DNA from: a virus
IMG/VR virus record: IMGVR_UViG_3300037245_002806
Coordinates: 1 to 64,000 of that record
Strand: one strand, 5' to 3'
DNA length: 64,000 bases
This document shows positions 32,823 through 45,675 of this stretch, in pieces; the first letter of the stretch is position 1, and each line of letters begins with the position of its first letter. The notes beneath the pieces were generated by a model that did no database searches, was not told the DNA's origin, and worked only from the letters and a program-made list of their open reading frames with translations. A program made the position numbers and the translations under genes.

Positions 32823-32906
32823 TTAGAGTTGTTCGGCGGCGAGTATCTCTTTTTCGAGTTGGTCGGAATCGACCTCAGGCCAATTAGCTTTCTCTTTGTT
32901 TTCCAT
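32823..32906 (-). CDS. Leaderless 27-residue early peptide
   Basis: Begins MENKEKANWPEVDSDQ and ends at a TAA ten bases before the next ATG. Its ATG is six bases after the -10 box of the promoter at 32913, so it should be at the mRNA 5' end. An acidic small peptide or a translated leader for the 32406 gene. Confidence 0.5.
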   Translation of the reverse strand: MENKEKANWPEVDSDQLEKEILAAEQL

Positions 32907-32912
32907 ACTTAT

Positions 32913-32941
32913 AATATACCTCTTTCGTGGTCGGTTGTCAA
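32913..32941 (-). promoter_or_regulatory. Early leaderless promoter, copy 1
   Basis: TTGACA, 17 bases, TATATT, then ATAAGT and ATG (minus strand). Predicted +1 is the A of the ATG at 32906. Confidence 0.85.
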
Positions 32942-32968
32942 GTATAAAATGGGTTTATTATGCGGTTT

Positions 32969-33208
32969 TTATCGTCGCCGACCGTCCCCGAATAAACGCA
33001 CGATCTCGGCCTCTTCCTGTGCCAAGGCCGCTTGTATCGTGCTCGGCGGTACGTTCCACATATCTTGCACGCCGGCGTAGTAGAATTCGGCCCGGTGCTC
33101 GGCATCGTGTTCCCCGGCCCACTGGTAGTAGTCTTCCAACTGCTCAGCAGTGTAAAGCCCTTCGCCGTCGATCCCCTCGAAAGCCGGTAACATTCCTGCT
33201 TGCGCCAT
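32969..33208 (-). CDS. Hypothetical protein
   Basis: 79 residues; ATG preceded by GAAAGGTGAG. Acidic helical (EQLEDYYQWAGEHDAEHRAE). The last gene of an early transcript ahead of the promoter at 32.9 kb. Function unknown. Confidence 0.65.
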   Translation of the reverse strand: MAQAGMLPAFEGIDGEGLYTAEQLEDYYQWAGEHDAEHRAEFYYAGVQDMWNVPPSTIQAALAQEEAEIVRLFGDGRRR

Positions 33209-33225
33209 GGTCTCTCACCTTTCTG

Positions 33226-33245
33226 GGGGCGCCCGTAGGCGCCCC
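33226..33245 (-). terminator. GC hairpin between early genes
   Basis: Perfect 8-bp stem GGGGCGCC / GGCGCCCC with a four-base loop, just after the 33254 stop; no U-run. Could protect mRNA ends or act with a factor. Confidence 0.35.
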
Positions 33246-33253
33246 GTTTCGGT

Positions 33254-33676
33254 TTACGCCGCGGCCATCTGGGCTTTGTGTGCCTTGGCGAACCCTTGGT
33301 GGCGGATATTGGAATTCCAGGTACGGGCAAAGCTCTTTTCGTCGCGCATTTCGCGGCGGTTGCTCACCATCTGGCTGCCTTCCCACTTAATCGCAACCCG
33401 GTAGTATCCGATCCCGTCCATCTGGATGCTCACGGGGTACCAGCCGTCGGCAAAGCCGTTGCAACCGGTGGCCAGCAAAAAGGTCATCTCCGGATCCCGC
33501 ATTAAGTCGGAACGTTGCTCGTAGTAGTGGGCGACCGAAACCATTTTTCGACCGTCGGGAGAAAGGCCGATACCCTCGATTGTCAGGTCCATGTAGGAAC
33601 CGTTGGAAATTTTGATGTGGAAAAACGAGTCGTTTTCGTGGCCGGCGTCTTTAATTATCCGTTCGATTTCTTTCAT
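33254..33676 (-). CDS. Hypothetical early protein
   Basis: 140 residues from MKEIERIIKDAGHEND, with AAAGGGG upstream. Begins inside the end of a 13-codon leaderless upstream ORF (ATGA overlap). Beta-rich middle (MDLTIEGIGLSPDGRKMVSV) and a helical C-terminus. Function unknown. Confidence 0.75.
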   Translation of the reverse strand: MKEIERIIKDAGHENDSFFHIKISNGSYMDLTIEGIGLSPDGRKMVSVAHYYEQRSDLMRDPEMTFLLATGCNGFADGWYPVSIQMDGIGYYRVAIKWEGSQMVSNRREMRDEKSFARTWNSNIRHQGFAKAHKAQMAAA

Positions 33677-33714
33677 TTCGCTTGCCCCTTTTCTGTTTCT
33701 TTGTTGCTTTCCAT
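33673..33714 (-). CDS. Leaderless upstream ORF
   Basis: MESNKETEKGQAK, stop TGA overlapping the next ATG. The ATG is at the predicted +1 of the promoter at 33721. Translation of this peptide would deliver ribosomes to the next gene (coupling). It matches the N-termini of other leaderless proteins (MESNKETKK at 42.27 kb). Confidence 0.5.
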   Translation of the reverse strand: MESNKETEKGQAK

Positions 33715-33720
33715 ACTTAT

Positions 33721-33749
33721 AATATAGCAACATTATGGGGTTTTGTCAA
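33721..33749 (-). promoter_or_regulatory. Early leaderless promoter, copy 2
   Basis: TTGACA, 17 bases, TATATT, ATAAGT, ATG. Preceded by an A/T-rich tract that may be an UP element. Confidence 0.85.
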
Positions 33750-33763
33750 GAGAAAAAGGTGGT

Positions 33764-33988
33764 TTATTTGATTTTATTTTTGTCCCCCTCGTCCATAATA
33801 TCGAGCACGCTTCCGAGGTAGGTGGCTCTCGAAATTCTGGTCTCAACCACCTGGCCCCGCTTGTTGTACCGCTTTAACCGCCAGCGCATGCCGGAATCCG
33901 CCGGCCCCCTGACTACCTGGGTTTCCCATTCGCCGGCGGAGTAGGTGCCGAGCACCGCCCACGGCTTATCGCTTGTTGGCCCTCTCAC
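33764..33988 (-). CDS. Hypothetical protein
   Basis: 74 residues from GTG overlapping the upstream TGA. Beta-rich (WAVLGTYSAGEWETQVV, RWRLKRYNKRGQVVETRI). Function unknown. Confidence 0.6.
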   Translation of the reverse strand: MRGPTSDKPWAVLGTYSAGEWETQVVRGPADSGMRWRLKRYNKRGQVVETRISRATYLGSVLDIMDEGDKNKIK

Positions 33989-34206
33989 TGGCCCCCCTCT
34001 GCCCGCCAGCGCCGGCACCGCTCCAAAACCAAGGCGTCAACCGCTTCCCGCGCGGCCTTCCGGGTTGGGAACACCGTTGGAATCTCGACCCCGCATGCCC
34101 CGTTGGTGACCCACCCGCGGCCCGTCCGGAGTTTTTCGATAAAGTGGTCCGGCCCGTATCCCGCCCACCGGTTAGATAAAACGTGCATATCATGGTTGTC
34201 TAGCAT
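33985..34206 (-). CDS. Hypothetical protein
   Basis: 73 residues; ATG overlaps the upstream TAA (TAATG). Contains RTGRGWVTNGACGVEIPTVF and a helical end. Function unknown. Confidence 0.6.
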   Translation of the reverse strand: MLDNHDMHVLSNRWAGYGPDHFIEKLRTGRGWVTNGACGVEIPTVFPTRKAAREAVDALVLERCRRWRAEGGQ

Positions 34207-34439
34207 TATCCCTCGCTCCAAGGCCGGAAGCTATGCCGGGTGGTATCGTCGCACCTTACATGCCCGAGGTGGTCGCACCCGCAATCCCCGGTATGTACTA
34301 CAGTCCACCGGCCATCCATTCTCACGTGCATGTGCCCGCAATCCCGGCACGGCCCGGAATCGACTCCCATGCCACCGACGACGCCGCGATTTTCTACTTC
34401 GCCCCCGCACATCCTGCACTCAACTCGCTCGTTGTCCAT
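34206..34439 (-). CDS. Leaderless zinc-finger protein
   Basis: 77 residues (MDNERVECRMCGGEV). Cysteines CRMC, CRDCGH and CGCDH make one or two zinc sites. The ATG is six bases after a -10 box, with no ribosome site, as in the other early leaderless genes. Function unknown. Confidence 0.65.
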   Translation of the reverse strand: MDNERVECRMCGGEVENRGVVGGMGVDSGPCRDCGHMHVRMDGRWTVVHTGDCGCDHLGHVRCDDTTRHSFRPWSEG

Positions 34440-34445
34440 AACCTA

Positions 34446-34473
34446 ATAATAGCATATCAGGCGGATAAAGCAA
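34446..34473 (-). promoter_or_regulatory. Early leaderless promoter, copy 3
   Basis: TTGCTT, 16 bases, TATTAT, TAGGTT, ATG on the minus strand. Same geometry as the others with a weaker -35. Confidence 0.7.
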
Positions 34474-34513
34474 GTCTTTTATAATTGTTTTTTTGGATTT
34501 ATTCCGGTGGGTT

Positions 34514-34535
34514 GGGAGCCCCCCGTGGGGCTCCC
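34514..34535 (-). terminator. Terminator-like hairpin
   Basis: Perfect GGGAGCCCC / GGGGCTCCC stem right after the stop of the 34542 gene and before the next promoter. No U-run on the minus strand. Confidence 0.5.
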
Positions 34536-34541
34536 TCTTTC

Positions 34542-34799
34542 CTACTCCTTACGCCGTCTCGAGATCGAGCACCGTTCTACGATGTCAACGATCTCCGAAT
34601 GGCCCTGGCGCCACCGTCTGACTAGGTGGATTACCCGACACGAAGGTCCGGCGCTCTTCGTGTGGCTCTTGGCGAAAAAGCGGCCTTCGTCCGTGTTTTG
34701 GACCCCACGCTCCCAATGACAGGCAACGCACCTGGCAAAGTAAGGCTCTGTAAGAGTAGGCTTTTTGGCGGTCGGTTCTTGTAGCAACGTTTTTATCAC
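34542..34799 (-). CDS. Zinc-binding hypothetical protein
   Basis: 85 residues from GTG overlapping the HNH gene's TGA, with AAGGGG ahead. CVACHWERGVQNTDEGRFF resembles a small zinc motif. Function unknown. Confidence 0.55.
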   Translation of the reverse strand: MIKTLLQEPTAKKPTLTEPYFARCVACHWERGVQNTDEGRFFAKSHTKSAGPSCRVIHLVRRWRQGHSEIVDIVERCSISRRRKE

Positions 34800-35311
34800 C
34801 CCCTTTCGGCTTTCTGCTTTCTGTGGTTGGAGTTGTAGCGCCGGCTGGCCGCCTTGCATCGGTCGCAACGGCAACCTCGGCTCCATTCGCTAGTCGTCCC
34901 ATGGTTGCGGAGATCGCTCGGGCTGTATTTTTTCTTCCGCTTCCGGTTGTAATCCCCATGTGCTCTCGTACAATCCGGACATCTGCACCCGAGCCGATAT
35001 CCACTTGTGCTCCCATGCGTAGCTGTCCGCTCGTGCTTAAATCCCGCGTCCCCCCTCTCCTCGTGCGTCCTGCCGTGACAGGATCGGCATAGCAACATGC
35101 ACTTTGCCACCTCGGCCAGGAAACGATCGAGCCCGTAGGCTACTCCAGAGGATAAAATGCCAAAGCTCTTTGTTTTGGGATCGACGTGGTGGGTGACTAA
35201 CCCTTCCTTCGTCCCGCACCTGGTGCACTTTCCGCCGAGCAAAAGGATCGCCAGCGCCGTCCGGAAAGCTCGCCGGCGGTGTTTCCAGGCTTGGGTTTTG
35301 GAGGTGGGCAT
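34796..35311 (-). CDS. HNH endonuclease with C-terminal GCRC repeats
   Basis: 171 residues from MPTSKTQ (AAAGGACAG upstream). HNH core: GGKCTRCGTKEGLVTHHVDP then KCMLLCRSCHGRTHEERG. Two C-terminal repeats of the form HGSTSGYRLGCRCPDC and HGTTSEWSRGCRCDRC are probable DNA-recognition knuckles, as seen in free-standing phage HNH enzymes. It follows a structured intergenic region, so a mobile intron or homing element is worth considering. Confidence 0.8.
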   Translation of the reverse strand: MPTSKTQAWKHRRRAFRTALAILLLGGKCTRCGTKEGLVTHHVDPKTKSFGILSSGVAYGLDRFLAEVAKCMLLCRSCHGRTHEERGDAGFKHERTATHGSTSGYRLGCRCPDCTRAHGDYNRKRKKKYSPSDLRNHGTTSEWSRGCRCDRCKAASRRYNSNHRKQKAERG

Positions 35312-35363
35312 CTGTCCTTTAAGTACCATATAAGCCGGTAACTTGCAAGGTTTTTATGGAAGT

Positions 35364-35501
35364 CAGCCGGGTGGTTTATGCCCGGCTGCTCCCCAATGGT
35401 GGGCGATCGACAGCGACGATGACGCCCTCAAGGGGGGGCCTTGGGGCAAGCTCTGGGAATAGCCGCCGATCGCCCCTTTGCGCAGGAGGTTTCCCAGAGC
35501 T
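35364..35501 (-). ncRNA. Candidate structured RNA with pseudoknot
   Basis: No gene in 35312-35499. Interlocked perfect pairings: GGGCGATCG at 35401-35409 with 35467-35475 (9 bp), and AGCTCTGGGAA at 35449-35459 with 35491-35501 (11 bp), a pseudoknot topology. Inside is a 9-bp hairpin with a single-base bulge (35424-35447), and at the far end an 8-bp hairpin (35364-35388). The flanking genes and a possible promoter (35524-35551) suggest minus-strand transcription. No known class recognised; an attachment or regulatory DNA site is the alternative. Confidence 0.5.
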
Positions 35502-35598
35502 AACGCTCAATCTGCATCGCAAGATAGTAGCACATTAAGCAAACGCCGCAAGCTAGAAACCCTATGGAATAGGCTTTGCTTTCTACGCGAAAAACCAC
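35500..35598 (-). CDS. Possible 32-residue membrane peptide
   Basis: GTG start (VVFRVESKAYS) overlapping the upstream gene by 16 bases; hydrophobic IGFLACGVCLMCYYLAM. No ribosome site, so translation would rely on coupling. Confidence 0.3.
   Translation of the reverse strand: MVFRVESKAYSIGFLACGVCLMCYYLAMQIER
35524..35551 (-). promoter_or_regulatory. Possible promoter for the structured RNA/HNH region
   Basis: TTGCGG, 16 bases, TACTAT on the minus strand; predicted start near 35517, just ahead of the pseudoknot region. Confidence 0.35.
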
Positions 35599-35939
35599 AC
35601 CGCCGCGGCCAACGCCGCCAACGATCCGACCACCGCCACGAATAGCGCCATGCTGCCCGGTCTTCGGTCCATTTGCTCGAAGTCCATGGCCACCGTGTCG
35701 AGGTTCACCTTTTCCTCGGGATACCAGTCCCGCTCTTTCGCCTGGGGATACTCGTCCTCCAGTCGTATCCAATAGATTCTCCCGCCGTCGGCACACCCGC
35801 CGCGCCCGAGCACCTTGCCCGCCGCGGTGTAGTTAATGCCCGGCTTGGGGTTTATGTCCACCCGAACCAGATCCCCGATCTTAAATCTGGCCCCTTCCAT
35901 TGTTTTGCAGTGTTCCACGTACCCTTTTTGCATCTCCAT
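35583..35939 (-). CDS. SH3-like domain protein with C-terminal membrane segment
   Basis: 118 residues. FKIGDLVRVDINPKPG and GKVLGRGG...IYWIRLEDEY suggest a small SH3/KOW-like barrel; the C-terminus (SMALFVAVVGSLAALAAAVWFF) is a membrane anchor. ATG preceded by AAAGGGG. Function unknown. Confidence 0.6.
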   Translation of the reverse strand: MEMQKGYVEHCKTMEGARFKIGDLVRVDINPKPGINYTAAGKVLGRGGCADGGRIYWIRLEDEYPQAKERDWYPEEKVNLDTVAMDFEQMDRRPGSMALFVAVVGSLAALAAAVWFFA

Positions 35940-35996
35940 CCCATGCCCCTTTCTGTGTCACCGCCCGCCCGCGCCTTCCGGCCCGGTACCGGCTTT

Positions 35997-36170
35997 TTAG
36001 ACTTTGCTGGCTACCAACCTGCCGGCCTCGTCGTAAACGTCGATCCACGCCCACCGCGCGGAAGTGACCACCCGGTAATCCCACTCGGGATCGCCCGTCT
36101 GGAAAAGCGCCGCCACGCGCTCGGCCTCTTTGTGCTCGTAAAATTTGTCCGGCCCGTCAATCCGCGGCAT
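35997..36170 (-). CDS. Small hypothetical protein
   Basis: 57 residues from MPRIDGPDKFYEHKEAE, with AAGGGGGAAG upstream. It overlaps the end of the upstream 56-residue ORF by 14 bases. The 57 bases after its stop hold a decayed GATATAGA element at 35952-35969. Function unknown. Confidence 0.6.
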   Translation of the reverse strand: MPRIDGPDKFYEHKEAERVAALFQTGDPEWDYRVVTSARWAWIDVYDEAGRLVASKV

Positions 36171-36327
36171 CTGCTTCCCCCTTCTGGTGTGCTTCCTTTT
36201 GGATAAAAGCCAAGCTCTCGTAATCCTGGTCGTGGAAAAAGATCCCCATAGCTCGCGGCGCATCGTGCCACTTCAGCGCCGCCAAAAGCCACTTGTAAAG
36301 GGCTTTTACCTTACCGATCCGCGGCAT
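36157..36327 (-). CDS. Small hypothetical protein
   Basis: 56 residues from MPRIGKVKALYKWLL, GGGGAG upstream. It shares the MPRI start with the next gene, perhaps a local duplication of the start region. Helical and aromatic. Function unknown. Confidence 0.6.
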   Translation of the reverse strand: MPRIGKVKALYKWLLAALKWHDAPRAMGIFFHDQDYESLAFIQKEAHQKGEADAAD

Positions 36328-36544
36328 AATACTCCCCTTTCCACTGCATCGCCTTCGAGATACCTTCGAGCCAATCTTGCACGATCAAGGTACCGTTGAC
36401 CCCCTCGTCCCGCGCTTCGCGCACCCGCTTTTGGGTGATCTGCATCTGGAAAGCCAAAGCCTTTATCGTTACCCGGCGCCGGCGCATCATGCGCTTTATC
36501 GCCGCGCCGGCCAACCTCTGCTCTGCAAAACGTCGATCAAACAT
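36311..36544 (-). CDS. Helix-turn-helix-like early protein
   Basis: 77 residues from MFDRRFAEQRL, preceded by a run of G. RRRVTIKALAFQMQITQKRVREARDEG fits a Cro/CI-type helix-turn-helix. A regulator of early genes is plausible. Confidence 0.6.
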   Translation of the reverse strand: MFDRRFAEQRLAGAAIKRMMRRRRVTIKALAFQMQITQKRVREARDEGVNGTLIVQDWLEGISKAMQWKGEYYAADR

Positions 36545-36552
36545 CGCCCCCC

Positions 36553-36945
36553 CTATTTGGTTTCGTCGATTGCCGCGAACATCGCCTTGTATCCCGCTTC
36601 CGTCGGGATTCCGTGCTCGTTTACCCACTTGCTCGGCTTGGTTTCCAACCTGGCGATCCTATCGGAAAGCCGGAACTGCCGCGCCGGCCAGGAAGGATCC
36701 TTCTCCCAAAGCCGGCCCGCCATGGCCGCCTCGATCGGTATCGCCTCGTCGTAAAGGTCTCCCAACTCGACCTCCAGATCGGAGATCTCTTCCTCATGGA
36801 GAAAGTCTAGATCGAGGTGCTCGGCGAGATTTTGCAAAGCGGCCTCTACCGCCTCGACCCGATCCGGCGCGATCCCCCGCTTCCGGTCTGCCGCTAAACC
36901 ATCGAGGAAGTACGCCGTTACCATCCATTGCGTTGTTATCTTCAC
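36553..36945 (-). CDS. Hypothetical protein
   Basis: 130 residues from GTG overlapping the upstream TGA. Helical and acidic (HLDLDFLHEEEISDLEVELG). Function unknown. Confidence 0.6.
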   Translation of the reverse strand: MKITTQWMVTAYFLDGLAADRKRGIAPDRVEAVEAALQNLAEHLDLDFLHEEEISDLEVELGDLYDEAIPIEAAMAGRLWEKDPSWPARQFRLSDRIARLETKPSKWVNEHGIPTEAGYKAMFAAIDETK

Positions 36946-37172
36946 CTGGCGCCCCCTTCGGCCCACTTTGCGTTGATCTGGCCGTCGGCCTCGATCCTTG
37001 CCAATTCGGGAGTATAGGACACGCTCGAAAAGTCGAACCGGTCCCACCGGACCAAAACAAAAGACTCAGACTCGTATGGCGCCGCCGGCCTTCCCGCGGT
37101 AACCGTTCCTTTGTAATCCCACAAGCTCGGGGTTTTGTAGGTAACTCTGTCGCCTTCTTTAAGATTCGGCAT
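36942..37172 (-). CDS. Small SH3/KOW-like protein
   Basis: 76 residues; LKEGDRVTYKTPSLWDYKGT looks like a KOW-type beta barrel start. ATG preceded by AGGAG. Function unknown. Confidence 0.6.
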   Translation of the reverse strand: MPNLKEGDRVTYKTPSLWDYKGTVTAGRPAAPYESESFVLVRWDRFDFSSVSYTPELARIEADGQINAKWAEGGAR

Positions 37173-37181
37173 TTTCGGCTC

Positions 37182-37514
37182 CTAGATTTCGGAAACGTCG
37201 ATTTCTGCATCGGCGAGAATTTCCGCCGGCGAAGCAAACGCCAACCCGGCAAAAGGGTTGTGGGTAAGCGCCTCGTCATCGGCAGGATCGAAAAGTAGCT
37301 GCCAACCGGTACCAGGCTCCCCCGTAGGCTCAGGCTCGCCGCAACCGCCGCAACCGACGTCCTGCAAGTAAACCACATCGGCGAATTTGTCACAGCGGTA
37401 GGTGGTTCCGCAAGTGTCGCATTTGGCAAGCAAGTAGGCGTCCACTTCGTCGGTGTGGTCGCTAATCGTAAAGGTGTTCCCCGCGCCGCTCTCGTTTGCT
37501 TTGTTGTTTTCCAT
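37182..37514 (-). CDS. Leaderless early protein with zinc site
   Basis: 110 residues (MENNKANESGAG). CDTCGTTYRC and CGGCGEPEP give a zinc site; acidic C-terminus. The ATG is six bases after the -10 box at 37521. No ribosome site. Function unknown. Confidence 0.7.
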   Translation of the reverse strand: MENNKANESGAGNTFTISDHTDEVDAYLLAKCDTCGTTYRCDKFADVVYLQDVGCGGCGEPEPTGEPGTGWQLLFDPADDEALTHNPFAGLAFASPAEILADAEIDVSEI

Positions 37515-37520
37515 ACTTAT

Positions 37521-37549
37521 AATATAGCAACATTATGGGGTTTAGTCAA
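37521..37549 (-). promoter_or_regulatory. Early leaderless promoter, copy 4
   Basis: TTGACT, 17 bases, TATATT, ATAAGT, ATG. The spacer is nearly identical to copy 2 at 33.7 kb. Confidence 0.85.
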
Positions 37550-37595
37550 GAGAAAAATGGGGTTTATTTGGATTTATTTTACCCCCCCGTGAGCC

Positions 37596-37643
37596 AAAAA
37601 CCCCGGCGCCGTGGATCTGATCTTGTGGCCGGCGCCGGGGTTT
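37596..37643 (-). terminator. Strong rho-independent terminator
   Basis: Perfect 13-bp stem AAACCCCGGCGCC / GGCGCCGGGGTTT with TTTTT after it on the minus strand. It insulates the 37514 promoter from the upstream early transcript. Confidence 0.8.
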
Positions 37644-37699
37644 CGATCTATACATACCAAGTATCGCCCGTAGTGGACTAGGATCCACTCATCGCTTGT

Positions 37700-38002
37700 T
37701 TAACATAAAGCCCCCTTTCGTTTTGCTCGCCGGTCGGCGTCCCTCTTAAAGATACAACCGGTACAAAGTACCATAAACCCGAGATCAAGATTTCGTTTAT
37801 GCTCATCCAGAGATTTCGCCCTCGGGAGCCCACCAAGGTCAGGATGTACCGGCCTGGCGTGGTGCCCGCACCTCGGGCGCCCGCAATCCAAGCAACGCCC
37901 GGTCGTTTTCCTTTTGCATCGGGCCATCCCCTTGCCCTTTGGCCCCGCATTGCACCGTTGGGGTTTTCGCCCCGCCGCCGCTTTTGCTTTGTCGTGTTCC
38001 AT
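37700..38002 (-). CDS. Leaderless zinc-finger protein
   Basis: 100 residues (MEHDKAKAAAGRK). CNAGPKGKGMARC, CLDCGRPRCGHHARPVH and a later CTGC give two potential zinc sites; the protein is basic. ATG at the predicted +1. Function unknown. Confidence 0.65.
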   Translation of the reverse strand: MEHDKAKAAAGRKPQRCNAGPKGKGMARCKRKTTGRCLDCGRPRCGHHARPVHPDLGGLPRAKSLDEHKRNLDLGFMVLCTGCIFKRDADRRAKRKGALC

Positions 38003-38008
38003 ACTTAT

Positions 38009-38037
38009 AATATACGCTTTCTATAGGGCTTTGTCAA
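38009..38037 (-). promoter_or_regulatory. Early leaderless promoter, copy 5
   Basis: TTGACA, 17 bases, TATATT, ATAAGT, ATG on the minus strand. Confidence 0.85.
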
Positions 38038-38047
38038 GAGAATAATG

Positions 38048-38230: not shown

Positions 38231-38242
38231 GGCATCCCCCTT

Positions 38243-38644: not shown

Positions 38645-38647
38645 TGC

Positions 38648-38839
38648 CTATGCCTCCTCGATTTCGAGCCCGGTTTCTTTGGCCAACGCCACCGCTTTGG
38701 CTTTCGCGCCCGCCTTGGTTTTGCTAACCTTGGCGTTTACGATTCCCTCGCCATCGGTGATCCCCGTAATCCAACCGTGCATCATCGGGAAGTAAACCAC
38801 CTTGCGGCCCGTTCCGTTTTCGTTTTCTTTGTTTTCCAT
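38648..38839 (-). CDS. Leaderless early protein, first of the minus-strand block
   Basis: 63 residues (MENKENENGTGRKVVYF). Beta start, then Lys/Ala helix. ATG at the predicted +1 of the promoter at 38845; it is the outermost gene of the minus block facing the divergent region. Function unknown. Confidence 0.65.
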   Translation of the reverse strand: MENKENENGTGRKVVYFPMMHGWITGITDGEGIVNAKVSKTKAGAKAKAVALAKETGLEIEEA

Positions 38840-38844
38840 ACTTA

Positions 38845-38872
38845 ATAGTACCATATCTACCGGCGTTTGCAA
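38845..38872 (-). promoter_or_regulatory. Early leaderless promoter, copy 6
   Basis: TTGCAA, 16 bases, TACTAT, TAAGT, ATG. It faces left out of the 0.9-kb divergent control region. Confidence 0.7.
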
Positions 38873-39738
38873 GAGAATAATGCCCATTATTCGCATTTAT
38901 TCTCATCCTTAATAAGAGTAAATTAACCCCGCCGTACCCCCGTTTTGGCACCCGCCTTGCATGCGGATAGGGCGCCTATATCGGCCAGATGGCAGGATTA
39001 TTTTATGTGTTCCAAATCACCTTTTTAGCCGAATAGTGTTGCATCTTTAAAGGTGGGAAAAACCCATAGTTTTAGATCCTGTGCCACCTCGATCCGGGCT
39101 CGCTACATGACCCATGCCAGGAGAATTGTAAGGCTTTGCTTTCTACCCCATAAACGGCACCAATTATATGGATGGTCCGCCCACATCAAGCGCCATGCCA
39201 ACCCGAATCTACACCTATTATATACCGTGTTTTGGGTGTTTCTAAGTGCGCTTAAAATAAGGGTTTGGTGCGTTAGCGGCGAAATATCGAGATCACCATG
39301 CTAGGAGTCGTTTATATTTATTATCGGCCTTAAACGACCCCTCACGACGTCGAACAAAGCCTTTGTTCTCTAAGGGTTAGCGGGATTGTGGGTGTGGGGT
39401 TTTCACCTTTAAAGATTAAACGTAGAGATGCACACCTTATATGGATAGTTTGTGCGATTTGTCACACAACACATAATAAAAATAAATATTCCCGCGCGGA
39501 GCTTGAGGAAATCCTTTTTGGACTATTTTAGATATTTTAACTCTGACCTATCCGGTCGGGTATCCGGCACACCTCGGGCGGGCTCGCAATGATATAGATC
39601 ACACCTCCGATGTTTTCCTTGTTTTTCTCAAGAAACCGCCCAATGGGCCGCCCACTAATAGAGGATAGATTGCACGCTTCATGCCAACAATAAGGGTATA
39701 TCCCCCGGATAAAAAAGCCCTCTTATTGCATTATTTTC
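38873..39738. other. Divergent control region, possible origin
   Basis: About 870 bases between divergent promoters with only one plausible coding trace (39334-39531). More A/T-rich than the rest, especially near 39470-39500. Holds a GGGCGGG...TGATATAGA-like sequence in opposite orientation at 39577-39600. Such a region between early transcripts often carries operators or the replication origin; nothing more specific is visible. Confidence 0.45.
39334..39531 (+). pseudogene. Possible remnant of an HNH-type nuclease
   Basis: A 65-codon open frame with no start codon near its beginning. The C-terminal half (RRDAHLIWIVCAICHTTHNK, then YSRAELEEILFG) looks like the end of an HNH domain, CxxCHxxxH. 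No ribosome site. Could be decayed DNA from a mobile nuclease. Confidence 0.3.
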
Positions 39739-39767
39739 TTGACGCGGCCATATAAAGATGGTACCTT
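39739..39767 (+). promoter_or_regulatory. Early leaderless promoter, copy 7
   Basis: TTGACG, 17 bases, TACCTT, ATATAT, ATG. Starts the plus-strand early block. Confidence 0.65.
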
Positions 39768-39773
39768 ATATAT

Positions 39774-40271
39774 ATGGAAAGCAAGAAAGCGCAAAACGAA
39801 AACGAGGGAGAAACCATGACACACGAAATCCGAATTGCCAAGGGTAAGAAAAGCTGCGATAAATGCTCGGCCCATGGACTCTACTGGCACCAAAGCCGCG
39901 CCGGCAACTGGGTGTTATTCGAGTTGATCGACATCGTGGATGAGGCTGGCGACTCTGTAGATTCCACCCACCGCGCCCACTACGCTTACTGCGGCGCCGA
40001 CGTCGAGCAAGCGCCCGCCAAGGTTACCCCCGAAATCGACGCCGAAACCCGCAACGCTATCCACGAAGCGATCGGGGTTATCTACGATAATTGCGACGGT
40101 GCGACCCGCCGGGATGGCGCTGGCTTCTCGAAGCACGACGCCCGCTTTGGCCACGACCTTGCAAGGGCCGGCAGCCTGAGCAATAACATGGCCGCCGCTG
40201 GCCGCCGCATGGTAAAAAAATACCGCCGCCAGCTTACCGCGGCTGGCTTCGACCTCGACCGCTTGAATTAG
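39774..40271 (+). CDS. Conserved phage-type zinc protein
   Basis: 165 residues from the +1 ATG (MESKKAQNENEGETMTHE); an inner ATG at 39816 with GAGGGAGA upstream is a second possible start. CDKCSAHGLYWH binds metal; the C-terminal FSKHDARFGHDLARAGSLSN and KKYRRQL match a module common in phage proteins of unknown role. Confidence 0.7.
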   Translation: MESKKAQNENEGETMTHEIRIAKGKKSCDKCSAHGLYWHQSRAGNWVLFELIDIVDEAGDSVDSTHRAHYAYCGADVEQAPAKVTPEIDAETRNAIHEAIGVIYDNCDGATRRDGAGFSKHDARFGHDLARAGSLSNNMAAAGRRMVKKYRRQLTAAGFDLDRLN

Positions 40272-40287
40272 AGGGGGGATAGATACC

Positions 40288-40767
40288 ATGGCAAGTTTAT
40301 TCGACGTCCGGAGCAACGCGCTCCGACTCTTTAAAGAGCACGGGCTCGATGAGAAGGGTTGGAGCTTTGGCTTTGACAATGCAAAACGTAGATTCGGCCA
40401 GTGTAGCGCCGGCGCCAAGCGGATCACGATCTCGAAGCACCTGGCCGCCCTAAACACCTTGGAACGGGTGACCCAGACCATTAAACACGAGATCGCGCAT
40501 GCGCTCGCCGGCCCCGTTGGCCATGCCCGTGCATGGCGGATCATGGCCTTGAGGATCGGTTGTCCGCCTGTCCGGTGCTACTCTACCTCGGAGGTTGCTA
40601 CCCCGAGCGCGCCATATGAGGCTAAATGCCCCGGTTGCGGCATGGTGGCCAAAAAGTTTAAGCGCCCCCGCCGGCCTTCGTCCTGTGGTCGGTGCTCGCC
40701 CCGATACGACGCCCGTTTCCTTTTGACCTTTCTCGACGTGCGGGCTCGGCTCCGCCAGGGGAAATAA
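40288..40767 (+). CDS. SprT-like zinc metalloprotease
   Basis: 159 residues. HEIAHALAG (H67, E68, H71) with the downstream GHARAWRIMA is the SprT/Spartan catalytic pattern, and CPGC...CGRC near 113-140 is the family's C-terminal zinc ribbon. Spartan-type enzymes cut proteins on DNA; the phage role is unknown. ATG after AGAGGGGGG. Confidence 0.85.
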   Translation: MASLFDVRSNALRLFKEHGLDEKGWSFGFDNAKRRFGQCSAGAKRITISKHLAALNTLERVTQTIKHEIAHALAGPVGHARAWRIMALRIGCPPVRCYSTSEVATPSAPYEAKCPGCGMVAKKFKRPRRPSSCGRCSPRYDARFLLTFLDVRARLRQGK

Positions 40768-40768
40768 C

Positions 40769-41023
40769 ATGTATCGAACGATACCCAACGGAATCGACCT
40801 TACAGCGATTAGACAATGGATGTGGGATCACGTTGACATGTATCCCACCGACGTGGATCGGTTGGTGCACCTCTACTACCTCGACCACGTTCTAGATACC
40901 GAGATTGAGGCCAGGATCGATACCGCCGCGGGGAAGGTGGACCCCGCCCGGTACGTCGCCTTGGAAATCCAAGAATATTTCGCCCGAGGTTGGAAAAATG
41001 AGAAAAAGCCACCCTCGAATTAA
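40769..41023 (+). CDS. Hypothetical protein
   Basis: 84 residues, helical and acidic (DVDRLVHLYYLDHVLDTEIE). Starts just after the SprT stop. Function unknown. Confidence 0.65.
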   Translation: MYRTIPNGIDLTAIRQWMWDHVDMYPTDVDRLVHLYYLDHVLDTEIEARIDTAAGKVDPARYVALEIQEYFARGWKNEKKPPSN

Positions 41024-41047
41024 AAGCATAATTATCGCACTTTTTCC

Positions 41048-41076
41048 TTGACAGAACCGGTAGAATATCGTATATT
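41048..41076 (+). promoter_or_regulatory. Early leaderless promoter, copy 8
   Basis: TTGACA, 17 bases, TATATT, ATAAGT, ATG. Spacer identical over most of its length to copy 9. Confidence 0.85.
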
Positions 41077-41082
41077 ATAAGT

Positions 41083-41298
41083 ATGGAAAGCACAAAGAAA
41101 GGGGAAAGCACGATGACAGAAACACAGAGAAACGCTCTCCGCGCAATGGCCGCCCGGAACACCGGCGCCTTATTGGTTGGACCTTGGGGCGACCGTGAAG
41201 GCGCCAGTTGGTGCTGGCCGGAAACGGTACGGCTCTCCGACGATGCCGCCCGCGCTGTGCTCGCCCGCTTAGCCGAACTGGAAAGGAACGGACAATGA
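41083..41298 (+). CDS. Leaderless early protein
   Basis: 71 residues (MESTKKGESTMTETQRN). An inner ATG (41113) follows AAAGGGGAAAGC, so both a leaderless and a ribosome-site start are possible in one frame. Function unknown. Confidence 0.65.
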   Translation: MESTKKGESTMTETQRNALRAMAARNTGALLVGPWGDREGASWCWPETVRLSDDAARAVLARLAELERNGQ

Positions 41299-41663
41299 CT
41301 AACGAAGAAATCGCAATGTTAGCGCAAGAGGTTTACCAACTCGCCGCGGAATCCACCCGCAAGGGCGGATCGTGGAATCCTGGTGACCTAAAAGGGTTCG
41401 ATACCGGTAAGGCGCAACGGGCTTTCCAGATATTGACAAAGGCCGCCGGCGATCTCGATACCCTGGCGAAAGAAGGGGATCACACCGAAGGTGAATGCGA
41501 AGTATGCCAAGGCGCCGCCGCCGGTTGCGTAACATGCGGTGGATCCGGGCAAGCCCTTTACTGCTTGCGGACGGGTTGTGGGAGACCGGCAACCCACTTA
41601 GAGAACGTGGCCGGCGAAAGCCACGCCTATTGCGACGAGTGCACCACTGGAGGTACCCGATGA
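41295..41663 (+). CDS. Zinc protein with DnaJ-type motif
   Basis: 122 residues; ATG overlaps the previous stop (ATGA). CEVCQGAAAGCVTCGGSG is a DnaJ-like CxxCxGxG set, followed by CGRP and CDEC. Function unknown. Confidence 0.65.
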   Translation: MTNEEIAMLAQEVYQLAAESTRKGGSWNPGDLKGFDTGKAQRAFQILTKAAGDLDTLAKEGDHTEGECEVCQGAAAGCVTCGGSGQALYCLRTGCGRPATHLENVAGESHAYCDECTTGGTR

Positions 41664-41974
41664 ACTGTAACGAATGTGACCGCAAGGTGGTAAGGCGAAA
41701 CGCCATCGGGCAGTGCCAATGGTGCTCGGCGGAAGAAGCGCGGATCCTAAACCGCGCCGAATCGATCGCCAGGGAAAAGCACTACACCGTCGCGGAAGTG
41801 AACCGCCGCGCGGATCTGGCGCTCGAATCGGTACGGCTGGCCGATGCCGCTTCGAAGGCCGGCCCGCACACCGTACCGCCTTGGTTTGCCGCTGAGAATC
41901 TAATCCTGGGGCCGGCGGAAGTCGCCGCCAGATACCGAACCAACCTGGCGATGGCGGGAGATGTAAAACCATGA
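41660..41974 (+). CDS. Zinc-binding hypothetical protein
   Basis: 104 residues; ATG overlaps the previous TGA. CNECDRKVVRRNAIGQCQWC forms a zinc ribbon, the rest is helical. Function unknown. Confidence 0.6.
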   Translation: MNCNECDRKVVRRNAIGQCQWCSAEEARILNRAESIAREKHYTVAEVNRRADLALESVRLADAASKAGPHTVPPWFAAENLILGPAEVAARYRTNLAMAGDVKP

Positions 41975-42132
41975 GCATAATAATCGAGGTAGAAGAACAC
42001 GATCTTTGGGTAATCCGGTATGCGCTTAAAGTGCTCGCCCGCCGGGCTTTCTTGCCGCCTCTGCCGCCGGATGATTCCAAAACGCAAAAAGAAGCCGTCG
42101 AGGTTTTGCAAAAGCTCCACCGCCAGACGTAG
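41971..42132 (+). CDS. Small hypothetical protein
   Basis: 53 residues (MSIIIEVEEHDLWVIRYALK); ATG overlaps the previous stop. Helical. Last gene of its transcript unit. Confidence 0.55.
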   Translation: MSIIIEVEEHDLWVIRYALKVLARRAFLPPLPPDDSKTQKEAVEVLQKLHRQT

Positions 42133-42188
42133 CGACTAGGGATCTCACCGAAGGGGGATGCTAAAAAACCACCACTCACGCCGGGTAT

Positions 42189-42202
42189 GCTAAAATTTTA
42201 GC
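42189..42202. promoter_or_regulatory. Perfect palindrome upstream of promoter
   Basis: GCTAAAATTTTAGC, 35 bases before the -35 box of copy 9. A dimeric regulator site is possible. Confidence 0.35.
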
Positions 42203-42236
42203 GGCAAAATAAATACAAAATAAATCCCTTTTTCTC

Positions 42237-42265
42237 TTGACAAAACCGGTAGAATATCGTATATT
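42237..42265 (+). promoter_or_regulatory. Early leaderless promoter, copy 9
   Basis: TTGACA, 17 bases, TATATT, ATAAGT, ATG, with an A/T-rich tract upstream (AAATAAATACAAAATAAAT). Confidence 0.85.
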
Positions 42266-42271
42266 ATAAGT

Positions 42272-42559
42272 ATGGAAAGCAACAAAGAAACAAAGAAAAG
42301 CAAAGGGGAAAAAGCCATGACCCAGGAACAGATGGAGCAACTTATAGTAGCGGTGGACGACGGACGAATAACCGGTGAGTTTTTCGACGCCACGATAAAC
42401 GGTCGGGACCAATGGGTACCTGGCTCGGGCGGAAATGAGACCTGGACCCTGGCGCGAAATGGCCGCTCTTACCTGTACTGTTACAACCCGGCCACCCAGG
42501 AGCACGGTTGGCTGAACCAGAGCGATATAGTCGAGATGGAAAGCCCTTACGGGCTCTAG
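42272..42559 (+). CDS. Leaderless early protein
   Basis: 95 residues (MESNKETKKSKGEKA), with an inner ATG at 42317 after AGGGGAAAAA. Beta-rich with WTLARNGRSYLYCYNP. Function unknown. Confidence 0.65.
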   Translation: MESNKETKKSKGEKAMTQEQMEQLIVAVDDGRITGEFFDATINGRDQWVPGSGGNETWTLARNGRSYLYCYNPATQEHGWLNQSDIVEMESPYGL

Positions 42560-42566
42560 ATAGAAG

Positions 42567-42582
42567 GGGGGCGAAAGCCCCC
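42567..42582 (+). terminator. GNRA-loop hairpin
   Basis: GGGGGC GAAA GCCCCC right after the 42559 stop; no U-run, so it may act as an mRNA 3' stabiliser. Confidence 0.5.
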
Positions 42583-42897
42583 ACCCCGGCGGACGAGGGG
42601 ATGCACCCCGCTTATTTAGGCTAGCGCCGGGACGGCATAATAAAACCCTGTTAGCTCGAACCCTCGGGGCGCGAAAGCGCCCCATCTTTTTGCTCAGGGG
42701 AGCCCGCCCCGAGCCCGCCGTTTTTCGACCTCCCGCGCCGGCGCCAGGAGCACCGCATACTAACCCGCTGATAAGGTCTGTCTATCCCGATGCTACGCCG
42801 TTCCCAACTGGATAAAAGTGCACCGATTCCCGCCGTAGGCTCAGGGCCCGCCCTCATCGAGCCCTAAAAATAAATCCAAAATAAAGCACCTTTTTAC
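42583..42897 (+). other. Non-coding spacer
   Basis: About 315 bases between two early units. It holds the terminator at 42666 and otherwise no convincing ORF; GC-rich then an A/T-rich stretch before the next promoter. No tRNA fold found by eye. Confidence 0.5.
42666..42691 (+). terminator. Rho-independent terminator
   Basis: GGGGCGC GAAA GCGCCCC followed by ATCTTTTT: 7-bp GC stem, GNRA loop and U-run. Confidence 0.8.
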
Positions 42898-42926
42898 TTG
42901 ACAAAGCCGGTAGATATTGGTATATT
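42898..42926 (+). promoter_or_regulatory. Early leaderless promoter, copy 10
   Basis: TTGACA, 17 bases, TATATT, ATAAGT, ATG. Confidence 0.85.
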
Positions 42927-42932
42927 ATAAGT

Positions 42933-43082
42933 ATGGAAAACGAGAACGGGCGAAAAACAAAACTGGAAAAAGAATCCGCCGGCGAAAAGCAGAAATGCCC
43001 GACTTGCCGGTATCGCTGGCCGGGACATAACACAAGCTGCCCGGTGCTACGCTCGAATCGCCTACATGGAAAGAGTGAATAA
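42933..43082 (+). CDS. Leaderless small zinc protein
   Basis: 49 residues (MENENGRKTKLEKES). CPTCRYRWPGHNTSCP is a zinc-binding loop. Ends with TAATG overlap to the next gene. No ribosome site at the start. Confidence 0.6.
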   Translation: MENENGRKTKLEKESAGEKQKCPTCRYRWPGHNTSCPVLRSNRLHGKSE

Positions 43083-43249
43083 TGGACGAGATTAAGACAA
43101 TGCAGGATGGCAACAAGGTCCGCCACGAAGGGCCGTGCACGTGGTGCAAAACCTTCTCCACCCACCTGAAGCCCTCGGATCGCTGGATGCAACCCGGCGA
43201 ACTTATCTGCAACGGCTGCCAAAACCAACTAACCGAAAGCAAGAGGTAA
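43082..43249 (+). CDS. Small zinc protein
   Basis: 55 residues (MDEIKTMQDGNKV) with CTWC and CNGC, a zinc ribbon. TAATG overlap at its start. Function unknown. Confidence 0.6.
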   Translation: MDEIKTMQDGNKVRHEGPCTWCKTFSTHLKPSDRWMQPGELICNGCQNQLTESKR

Positions 43250-43253
43250 TCCG

Positions 43254-43916
43254 ATGACCAAAGAATGCACCCGCTGTGAAGGAATGCCCGCGATGGAGTG
43301 CCCCGACGAGCCCGTTTGCAAGCGGTGCGAAGGTACCGGGGAAGAGCCGGCGCCGTGTGGGTACGGGGAAGCCTCGTGCCAGGATGTGCAACTGAGGGAT
43401 CCTTCCTACACTTGCCACGACCACCCGGTGCCTGTGCCATGCGAAAAGTGCGGCGGTAACGGGTTGCTTGGCGAAAATGGCGAACGGGTGGAGCGCACCT
43501 CCCATGCCCCGATGAAAGCCTGCAACCGCTGCTTTGGATCGGGAGTCGAGCCCCCAGAGGATATCCGACGGGCGCCCACGCCGGCTGAGGTGATCGCCGG
43601 CGCCCACCCCGAGGTTGCCGCCCACGCCGAAAGGGTGGCCAACCCGCCGGCGCCGCCACCGCTTCGACCGTATTCCCCCATGGTGCATAACAACGGCACC
43701 GGACGCCAGGAGCTTGAAAGCCAACTCCGCAACGCCGGCGCCGCGGTACAAAATGCGATGGAAGCACTTCGCGCCGCCTACCCGAACGGGCGAGATTATT
43801 ACATCCAAGATACCCTGAAGGCCGCTTGCACCCAATGGGATGCCCGCTTCGAAAAACTGCAAACGGTTTACCGTGAGATCTTCCAGATCTACGAAAACGT
43901 CGCCGATCAAGAATAG
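43254..43916 (+). CDS. DnaJ-type zinc-finger protein
   Basis: 220 residues. CTRC, CKRCEGTG, CEKCGGNG and CNRCFGSG within the first 100 residues reproduce the repeated CxxCxGxG of the DnaJ Cys-rich domain without a J domain. The C-terminal half is helical with a Pro-rich linker. Function unknown. Confidence 0.7.
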   Translation: MTKECTRCEGMPAMECPDEPVCKRCEGTGEEPAPCGYGEASCQDVQLRDPSYTCHDHPVPVPCEKCGGNGLLGENGERVERTSHAPMKACNRCFGSGVEPPEDIRRAPTPAEVIAGAHPEVAAHAERVANPPAPPPLRPYSPMVHNNGTGRQELESQLRNAGAAVQNAMEALRAAYPNGRDYYIQDTLKAACTQWDARFEKLQTVYREIFQIYENVADQE

Positions 43917-43928
43917 GAGTAGAAACCG

Positions 43929-44147
43929 ATGTGCCAGAAAAGCATAAACGAAAGAGAACGGGAACAGGAAACCGAGCGCCGCAAGGTGGAAGCTCTCGAA
44001 AGGATTGCCGCCCGGCTGGAACAGCTAAACGGCACCGTCGCCAAAGCCCTTGAACCCCTTCAAAATCTCGGATACATCGACAACGTAGCCGAAAAGATTG
44101 CCGGCGAATTGGTAAATCTTTCCGCCGTGATCCATAAAAGGAAATAG
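43929..44147 (+). CDS. Small coiled-coil protein
   Basis: 72 residues; REREQETERRKVEALERIAA is a likely coiled coil. ATG after AGGAG. Function unknown. Confidence 0.6.
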   Translation: MCQKSINEREREQETERRKVEALERIAARLEQLNGTVAKALEPLQNLGYIDNVAEKIAGELVNLSAVIHKRK

Positions 44148-44151
44148 CCAA

Positions 44152-44397
44152 ATGGATATGTGCAAACTGGACGACCTGAAAGAGTGGGTTCGAGATTGGG
44201 CCGTGCACTACAGTCGAACCCCGGAGAAGTTTTACGCCCGCGTAGCCATGGTTGCCCGTGAACAACGGATCAACATGGAAAACGCCACCTCTGGCGGTAG
44301 ACACCCGACGTGGTGCGACCCGAAAGAATACCGGCGATGTGTCGAGCGCCTCGAAGATATCGCCCGCCGGCGCCCACCCCTCAAAACCCTCTGGTAG
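44152..44397 (+). CDS. Hypothetical protein
   Basis: 81 residues, helical and basic (WAVHYSRTPEKFYARVAMVA). Last gene before a strong terminator. Function unknown. Confidence 0.6.
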   Translation: MDMCKLDDLKEWVRDWAVHYSRTPEKFYARVAMVAREQRINMENATSGGRHPTWCDPKEYRRCVERLEDIARRRPPLKTLW

Positions 44398-44404
44398 TCA
44401 ACGG

Positions 44405-44431
44405 AGCCCCCCACCCCCAGGGGGGGCTTTT
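44405..44431 (+). terminator. Rho-independent terminator
   Basis: AGCCCCCC / GGGGGGCT stem followed by TTTT just after the 44397 stop. Confidence 0.75.
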
Positions 44432-44612
44432 CCCCACCTTGCCCGCGGTGGAATTCATCCCTATCCGGTGAACCCCTTTATCCACACCGCTTAGCCCCGT
44501 GGGGCTCATCCCCCTACGTTTAGTGCGAAATACCCCTTTCTACCCACACCTTTTGCCTTTCTACCAAGCGGCATCACCTAAACCCTTGTTTTACCTTGCT
44601 TTAATTGGATAG

Positions 44613-44648
44613 ATATATGCGCCTTATTGGCACGAAGCGTGCATATAT
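44613..44648 (+). promoter_or_regulatory. Nested inverted repeat before a small operon
   Basis: ATATATGC pairs with GCATATAT around an inner GCACG/CGTGC hairpin; TATATA lies eight bases before the ATG. The arrangement could be an operator with the -10 box in one arm. No good -35 box. Confidence 0.4.
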
Positions 44649-44655
44649 AAGAGGT

Positions 44656-44793
44656 ATGATGACAAAAACAGCAAAAAGCAACGGGGAAGCAAAAGCGGCC
44701 TCGACGGTTTTTGCGCCCACCGGGGATAACGCTACCGAGCCCAAAGGGCCGGTGGTAGGTAACCCGGTGGAGCTTTCGGGGGGATCAAAATGA
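44656..44793 (+). CDS. Small hypothetical protein
   Basis: 45 residues (MMTKTAKSNGEAKAA), low complexity. AGAGG is only one to four bases from the two ATGs, so the start is uncertain. Ends in ATGA overlap with the next gene. Confidence 0.5.
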   Translation: MMTKTAKSNGEAKAASTVFAPTGDNATEPKGPVVGNPVELSGGSK

Positions 44794-44897
44794 CTTTCGC
44801 AATTATCGCCTTTATCGCAATCGGTGTTATCTGGCTTAACTGCGCCTTCCCCGTGACCCCTTTTGGTCGCCTGGTTCTAACCCTTATCGGAAAATAG
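44790..44897 (+). CDS. Small membrane peptide
   Basis: 35 residues, mostly hydrophobic (FAIIAFIAIGVIWLNCAF). ATG overlaps the previous stop. Function unknown. Confidence 0.5.
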   Translation: MTFAIIAFIAIGVIWLNCAFPVTPFGRLVLTLIGK

Positions 44898-44906
44898 GAG
44901 CAAACC

Positions 44907-45017
44907 ATGGAAATTCCAGCGTACTACCCTTTCGGCGAGCCCGAGACCGTTCCGGATTTATGCTACAACTGCGATCGCCCGATGGATGACCACCACCCCG
45001 ATTGCCCGGACGCCTAA
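44907..45017 (+). CDS. Small Cys protein
   Basis: 36 residues; CYNCDRPMDDHHPDC is a compact zinc site. ATG with AGGAG upstream. Function unknown. Confidence 0.5.
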   Translation: MEIPAYYPFGEPETVPDLCYNCDRPMDDHHPDCPDA

Positions 45018-45029
45018 ACCCTACCCCTC

Positions 45030-45057
45030 GGGGGGCGAAAGCCCCCCACCTTCCTTT
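45030..45057 (+). terminator. GNRA-loop terminator
   Basis: GGGGGGC GAAA GCCCCCC then ACCTTCCTTTT, 12 bases after the 45017 stop. Confidence 0.65.
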
Positions 45058-45075
45058 TGCCCGATCTGACCCTTC

Positions 45076-45414
45076 CCTCTGCGAACGTCGCCTGATTAGG
45101 GGTGTTCGACTTCGCACACCTGGCCGGCGTTTCGAGGTGCTCCCTCTGCGAGCCGATCCGGTGCCCGCCTCTGCGAGCGATCCGGGGTGGCCCCTCTGCG
45201 AGCAAAAATGGGGTGTTCGACTTCGCACACCTGGCCGACATTTCACGTGGTCCCCTCTGCGAGCGTTTCGAGGTGGTCCCTCTGCGAGCCGATCCGGGGT
45301 GTTCGACTTCGCACACTATCTACGTCGATCCGGCGGTGCTCCTCTGCGAGCGTTTTAGGGGTGTCCGTCTTCGCACACCTGGCCGGCGTTTTAGGGGTGT
45401 TCGACTTCGCACAC
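45076..45414. repeat. Non-coding array of two alternating short repeats
   Basis: Five copies of GTGTTCGACTTCGCACAC (starting 45101, 45212, 45298, 45360 with two changes, 45396), each able to fold as a GTGTTCG/CGCACAC hairpin with one mismatch, and seven copies of CCTCTGCGAGC (near 45076, 45143, 45168, 45193, 45254, 45279, 45341). Spacers repeat fragments such as GGCCGGCGTTT and GATCCGG. No gene fits. Candidate iteron/centromere-like DNA or a multi-hairpin RNA. Confidence 0.7.
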
Positions 45415-45447
45415 CTCAACCTACCACATAATAAATGTATTTTATGC

Positions 45448-45476
45448 TTGCCTTATCTACGGGGTTTTGGTACTAT
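45448..45476 (+). promoter_or_regulatory. Early leaderless promoter, copy 11
   Basis: TTGCCT, 17 bases, TACTAT, ATACGT, ATG. The +1 ATG starts MEVGENG, a 7-codon ORF (45483-45506) whose stop lies just inside the next gene. Confidence 0.7.
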
Positions 45477-45498
45477 ATACGTATGGAGGTTGGAGAAA

Positions 45499-45675
45499 AT
45501 GGTTAAAGTTTTTCTCTGTTGGTTCGAAAACGGCCAATTCGCCGAGTGTAGGGCGCGAAGTGCCGAATCCGCCAAATCGTTTGTAAACTCCTATTACAAG
45601 CGCCCGGTGGTAAGCGTCGAGTTGACCACCGAATACCCTGCGGCGCTCCATGAGGCGCTCTGGAGTGCGGTTTAG
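45499..45675 (+). CDS. Small hypothetical protein
   Basis: 58 residues (MVKVFLCWFENGQFAECRA), with GGAGGTTGGAG upstream; overlaps the leaderless 7-codon ORF. Alpha/beta. Ends in TAGTG overlap with the HD gene. Confidence 0.6.
   Translation: MVKVFLCWFENGQFAECRARSAESAKSFVNSYYKRPVVSVELTTEYPAALHEALWSAV

Follow-up and report, generated by a model that had tools for sequence, protein, structure and literature searches.

Why should a start codon sit exactly where a promoter would be expected to start the RNA, and why should a phage repeat that arrangement eleven times? The question arises from positions 1-64,000 (the window) of IMG/VR virus record IMGVR_UViG_3300037245_002806, the 99,905-b sequence of an uncultured tailed phage. 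Between 32.8 and 45.5 kb, on both strands, lie all eleven copies of a cassette, TTGACa-N16/17-TAtatT-N5/6-ATGGA, in which -35 and -10 boxes are followed almost at once by an ATG. We number the copies 1 to 11 along the window and name each open reading frame (ORF) by the position of the A of its cassette ATG (for example, 37514). We think it probable that these promoters start RNA at the ATG and give mRNAs with a 5' AUG, which are either leaderless or coupled to starts led by a Shine-Dalgarno (SD) sequence.

The A of the ATG is at 32906, 33714, 34439, 37514, 38002 and 38839 on the minus strand and at 39774, 41083, 42272, 42933 and 45483 on the plus strand, and the consensus reads TTGACA-17-TATATT-ATAAGT-ATGGAA. 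The spacer between the -35 and -10 boxes is 17 bp in nine copies and 16 bp in 34439 and 38839; the gap from -10 to ATG is 6 nt in ten copies and 5 nt in 38839. Every copy has a TANNNT-type -10 box 5-6 nt before the ATG, exactly TATATT in seven, where it forms part of an exact TATATTATAAGTATGGAA, and TACTAT, TACCTT or TATTAT in the others. The T at -1, the ATG and the GA at +4 and +5 are invariant (11/11). The eleven promoters of the original prediction are thus all present with the spacing it gave and constitute a real signal, weak at 34439, and the products begin, as it stated, with ME (ten) or MD (one). It also proposed aligning the copies, and their conservation does extend past the promoter: the conserved blocks are the -35 box, the stretch from -10 to +7, and upstream A/T tracts at -62..-59, -55..-49 and -43..-39. 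The tracts stand out as information peaks and may, as was suggested, act as an UP element. Spacers diverge between subfamilies, those of 33714 and 37514 being identical, and this combination of conserved blocks with diverged spacers points to selection, beyond recent copying alone.

Scanned for generic sigma-70 promoters, the region yields 12 sites where shuffled sequence yields 8.8; as this difference is not significant by itself, cassette-specific tests were applied instead. The short core TATAAGTATGGA, allowing at most two mismatches, has 11 matches in the window where 1.7 would be expected. None of 100 shuffles reaches 11, although one of the 11 matches (19259, plus strand) is no cassette and 34439 is missed. 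A matrix derived from the eleven copies ranks the same eleven at the top of the whole record and finds no further copies. With leave-one-out scoring and a flexible spacer, nine copies are unbeaten by any non-copy position and 38839 is outscored at just two positions, both of them other copies read in a shifted register.

Bacterial RNA polymerase most often starts 7 bp below the -10 box, and rarely more than 1 bp upstream or 2 bp downstream of that mode (PMC5730371). In ten copies the A of the ATG falls at position 7, and in 38839 at position 6, each time preceded by the invariant T, so that 5'-terminal AUGs are very likely. Promoter geometry, together with controls across the viral collection, strongly supports transcription beginning at the ATG or no more than 2 nt away, and backs the earlier numbering of the A as +1. 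An SD-like 4-mer lies ahead of the +1 ATG in one copy of eleven (32906), inside the promoter and upstream of the expected RNA start, and the presumptive RNAs carry no SD upstream of any +1 ATG. By comparison, 76 of the 92 other genes of at least 100 aa carry such a 4-mer, a figure that the gene caller's own preference for SD starts may raise. Codon scoring ranks the +1 frame first in 10/11 units, including the 13-codon leader of 33714 and the segments ahead of the internal ATGs of 39774 and 42272; our tallies of SD-led starts and coding frames rest on simple home-made rules. In the predicted secondary structures of most units' mRNAs, neither the 5' AUG nor the bulk of the dozen or so nucleotides after it is base-paired.

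The same geometry recurs in other viruses. We queried IMG/VR with TTGACA-17-TATATT followed by ATGGAA after a 6-nt gap, taking a 10-nt gap as the control. At 6 nt the query matches at least 118 viral loci; of 81 sites retrieved, 67 open ORFs of at least 40 codons, or 45 of 55 when only distinct sites are counted. The control has 27 loci in all, with such ORFs at 3 of 12 distinct sites (Fisher P ~3e-4 against 6 nt). In 0.95 Mb of the same contigs, once the selected sites are removed, ORF-opening ATGs below other strong promoters still peak sharply at 6 nt (19, where the mean is 2.5; Poisson P ~4e-11), and a second, broader maximum in promoter-to-ATG distance lies at roughly 20-36 nt. In the acidobacterial phages Tunturi_3 and Tunturi_4, annotated gp51 (RNase H) and gp47 (DNA polymerase) start 6-7 nt below a promoter, and an ATG-at-+1 promoter of Tunturi_3 at 35655 that has no annotated gene suggests a missed small gene. 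Thermus phage MN1 has a single 6-nt case only. A 264-kb uncultured virus record, IMGVR_UViG_3300018080_000099 (G004), has nine exact promoter-plus-ATG sites at 51-95 kb, two of them with leaders of 19 and 16 codons that end in ATGA on an SD-led start, like 33714. A 17.8-kb fragment, IMGVR_UViG_3300042987_003260 (G003), has four ATG-at-+1 promoters at 12.9-16.5 kb, three with a METIK start. Because the G003 and G004 sequences are unlike the cassette described here except in the hexamers, they look independent.

Some further matches are recorded as side observations. Tunturi_3 has, at ~35.6-44.1 kb, several mutually similar ATG-at-+1 promoters, some with TTTTGNTATAGT. In a Candidatus Saccharibacteria metagenome-assembled genome (MAG), PGXZ01000013.1, a gene resembling helix-turn-helix regulators has TTGACA-17-TATATTATAAGTATGGAAAAC, identical to the phage cassette from -12 to +9. 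CAKZHE010000099.1, from a MAG labelled cyanobacterium, has two near-identical TATATTATAAGTATGGAAAAC cassettes 1 kb apart that open ORFs of 42-44 codons, MEN[EK]RATRTSSGK. An exact-core scan returned two matches, both rejected: L007 lies within a reading frame with no recognisable promoter, and L008 lies at a gene start with no -35 box.

What would the 5' AUG do in each unit? Each +1 ORF either has the length of a gene or is a short leader that stops at, or shortly ahead of, the next start. Four units have no SD-led start nearby, and their reading frames make pure leaderless translation well supported. Three are on the minus strand: cassette 3, the weakest promoter (34440..34473; TTGCTT-16-TATTAT-TAGGTT), precedes an ORF of 77 aa (34206..34439; MDNERVE...); cassette 4 (37515..37549; TTGACT-17-TATATT-ATAAGT) one of 110 aa (37182..37514; MENNKANES...); and cassette 6, with the 5-nt gap (38840..38872; TTGCAA-16-TACTAT-TAAGT), one of 63 aa (38648..38839; MENKENENG...). 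The fourth, on the plus strand, is cassette 10 (42898..42932; TTGACA-17-TATATT-ATAAGT) with an ORF of 49 aa (42933..43082; MENENGRKT...). Cassette 5 (38003..38037, minus; TTGACA-17-TATATT-ATAAGT) and its ORF of 100 aa (37700..38002; MEHDKAK...) resemble these, yet a possible SD-like start lies in frame at codon 26; this unit is probably leaderless too.

Three plus-strand units have an in-frame SD-led ATG after 10-15 codons. They are cassette 7 (39739..39773; TTGACG-17-TACCTT-ATATAT) with an ORF of 165 aa (39774..40271; MESKKAQ...; internal ATG after 14 codons), cassette 8 (41048..41082) with 71 aa (41083..41298; MESTKKG...; after 10) and cassette 9 (42237..42271) with 95 aa (42272..42559; MESNKETKK...; after 15), the last two with TTGACA-17-TATATT-ATAAGT, as have cassettes 1 and 2. 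In the remaining three units the +1 ORF is a leader that ends at the next SD-led gene. On the minus strand, cassette 1 (32907..32941) opens 27 codons (32823..32906; MENKEKANW...) with a TAA stop codon that overlaps the SD (AAGGAG) belonging to the following gene (32406-32813), and cassette 2 (33715..33749) opens the 13-codon MESNKETEKGQAK (33673..33714), which contains the SD AAAAGGGG and ends in ATGA; the ATGA-coupled, SD-led gene (33254..33676) encodes DUF6908 (PF21849, Pfam), with the domain running from residue 2 of the internal start. On the plus strand, cassette 11 (45448..45482; TTGCCT-17-TACTAT-ATACGT) opens seven codons, MEVGENG (45483..45506), that overlap by 8 nt the next SD-led start, of a 58-aa gene (45499..45675). 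The leaderless regulon of the original prediction therefore stands for 34439, 37514, 38839 and 42933 and probably for 38002, but not as a single class, given the internal SD starts and leader ORFs. With units of several kinds, it is better named a 5'-AUG cassette regulon.

Automatic gene calls place several cassette genes at SD-led or upstream starts instead. Among phage homologues that might fix N-termini there is none for 37514 or 38002, and the match of 39774 is confined to residues 78-154. That segment matches helicase genes of Thermus phages phiLo and MN1, and the phage's own helicase (90766-92793 of the record) is closest to the same two phages.

Could the 5' AUG mostly start no protein, and merely dock ribosomes as an upstream AUG (uAUG) while the proteins come from SD-led internal or downstream starts? 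We regard this as possible but doubtful. SD-led starts do occur within 39774, 41083, 42272, 33714 and 45483, next to 32906 and possibly in 38002, which puts one within or just after the +1 ORF in six or seven of 11 units; in about half the units, then, the protein may actually begin at an SD-led start while the 5' AUG serves as a uAUG. The DUF6908 homology in the 33714 unit begins at the internal SD start, the ATGA leader design recurs twice in G004, and E. coli has natural 5'-uAUG mRNAs, among them rhaB with its ATGA overlap, with a downstream effect in some (PMC4965119). However, 34439, 37514, 38839 and 42933 have no SD-led internal start to fall back on, each SD start within 39774, 41083 and 42272 keeps the +1 reading frame, and the segments ahead of the internal ATGs score as coding in the +1 frame. 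Along with the SD-led starts, other observations weigh against our interpretation: the codon test has little power where segments are short and A-rich; 34439 is outscored in the leave-one-out test by about 30 other positions, which makes cassette 3 marginal on promoter sequence alone; and contigs not selected for the cassette (set B) have no 6-nt peak, so the geometry is confined to some lineages, and the phage's host would have to tolerate leaderless mRNA. G004, moreover, also has similar promoters with TATC, TATA or TATT replacing TATG, so that the AT at +1 may partly reflect an initiator preference.

This last point leads to a second alternative, that conservation at +1 is a DNA-level signal (an initiator, a discriminator or the site of a phage regulator) and that the ATG is there by chance or through cassette duplication. 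The G004 promoters retain T-A-T at -1..+2 even without an ATG, the ATAAGTATGGAA run is conserved past the needs of promoter function, and some cassette pairs are recent duplicates, as the shared spacer of 33714 and 37514 shows. Yet ATGGA is invariant despite divergent spacers, frame 0 is coding in ten units, and ORF-opening ATGs are enriched at 6 nt across unrelated phages; palindromy is limited to the 6-bp TTATAA, and for want of any dyad beyond it the operator idea was rejected. We consider a purely DNA-level signal improbable. To the notion that the cassettes are chance promoter-like sequence in A/T-rich DNA, or an artefact, we give almost no credence. The generic sigma-70 scan does show that weak consensus matches alone prove nothing, but seven of its twelve sites are cassettes, including all six with 11/12 matches, no shuffle equals the core count, and the matrix separates the copies from the rest of the genome. 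Chance is refuted for ten copies and could apply only to 34439.

The mechanism that we favour, in which the RNA starts at the ATG, would run as follows; we infer RNA 5' ends, translation starts and timing from sequence. From a near-consensus primary-sigma promoter, host RNA polymerase would begin its transcript at the A of the ATG, give or take 2 nt. The mRNA would then open with a 5'-terminal AUG and continue into A-rich sequence with little pairing (AUGGAAARC...). To this AUG ribosomes would bind directly, probably as 70S particles carrying fMet-tRNA. At 34439, 37514, 38002, 38839 and 42933 it would initiate the protein of a leaderless gene; at 39774, 41083 and 42272 it would open an in-frame N-terminal extension before the SD-led AUG; and at 33714, 45483 and 32906 it would open a short leader ORF with a stop codon lying across the start or SD of the next gene. 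In units with an extension or leader, the 5' AUG may recruit ribosomes to the SD-led gene or couple with it. In this way the cassettes would drive two groups of small genes that diverge within the non-structural region, and would most likely act early with host RNA polymerase, as their location and host-type promoters suggest. A bolder version, which we think unlikely, is a dedicated early 5'-AUG programme: the cassette would fuse promoter, initiator, start codon and A-rich codons 2-5; the phage would favour such mRNAs by way of initiation factors of the host or a factor of its own that reads ATAAGT-ATGGAA; promoter and ribosome-binding site would spread between genes as one unit; and G003 and G004 would hold comparable, independently evolved cassettes.

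The rest of the record fits a tailed phage, with genes for a portal, a major head protein, a long tape measure and a terminase, alongside recombination genes of RecE/RecT type and genes for a primase-helicase and an SNF2-type helicase. A megablast search of 50,697 phages with 24 kb of sequence found no close relatives, and IMG/VR scans with RecE and the primase as queries found no relative. The best helicase matches are in Thermus phages (38%) and the best primase match in Tunturi_3 (26%), and the DUF6908 protein matches Leptospira phages; as these disagree, there is no consistent host signal. No RNA polymerase, sigma factor or repressor was found among the phage proteins scanned, which were part of the proteome only, and no RNA families were found at 32-46 kb of the window. 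An A/T-richer intergenic region (38897..39738) separates the divergent cassette-bearing left and right arms. A 20-nt direct repeat (..TTATATGGAT..) within it, at 39157-39176 and 39430-39449, is similar to the start of cassette 7, and these repeats could be decayed cassettes.

If our interpretation is true, this phage made leaderless initiation a modular, repeated early-gene device, and with the same geometry in other viral contigs, when and why phages use leaderless translation becomes testable. Gene finders that seek an SD would miss such +1 ATGs, so start calls in phage annotation would need correction. The short leader ORFs ending at the next start would offer a naturally repeated test of 5'-uAUG coupling.

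Precedents for the leaderless geometry include lambda cI. We found no description of a repeated promoter-plus-codon cassette of this kind in the open-access literature searched. The regulon is less unusual than claimed in view of phage phiYS40 and the Cluster O mycobacteriophages. In Thermus phage phiYS40 most middle and late mRNAs are leaderless, and IF2 goes up and IF3 down during infection (PMC3594737). Both phages would have a whole transcript class that is leaderless, here predicted from sequence, but the phiYS40 class is middle and late, whereas here near-consensus -35 and -10 boxes belong to a repeated cassette that includes the first codons. Cluster O mycobacteriophages have three promoters, PL1, PR2 and PL2, at which the start codon's first base is the predicted +1 (PMC4351075). 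These too are SigA-type promoters whose +1 is predicted at the ATG, and two of them diverge from an A/T-rich intergenic region, but they number three against eleven and are not described as a promoter-plus-codon repeat. Leaderless, TA-led genes are known in Actinobacteria, Deinococcus-Thermus and Acidobacteria (PMC3160421; PMC12340547); a start-adjacent -10 box is common in Deinococcus-Thermus genes (PMC12340547), and three acidobacterial genomes surveyed average about 13% leaderless genes (PMC3160421). Such genes share with the cassettes a TANNNT about 10-12 bp before the start codon and the lack of an SD, but they form a dispersed class, unlike the present set, which is confined to one region of a phage and has full -35 boxes and common N-terminal codons. 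The Start-Associated Sequences of Cluster K mycobacteriophages, GGGATAGGAGCCC, also hug the start codons of non-structural phage genes as a short repeat, with an SD core (AGGAG) in the position of the ribosome-binding site (PMC3203893); in our cassette, the element before the start is instead a -10 box and discriminator without an SD, and the copies are not Start-Associated Sequences. Finally, in some natural E. coli 5'-uAUG mRNAs the uAUG affects the downstream SD-led gene, and rhaB has an 8-aa upstream ORF with the ATGA overlap (PMC4965119). This arrangement is matched, in sequence layout only, at 33714 (13 codons, ATGA) and 45483 (7 codons, 8-nt overlap), while the 32906 ORF stops inside the SD of the next gene. 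The E. coli cases are single host genes, whereas here a repeated phage cassette mixes the uAUG layout with leaderless genes.

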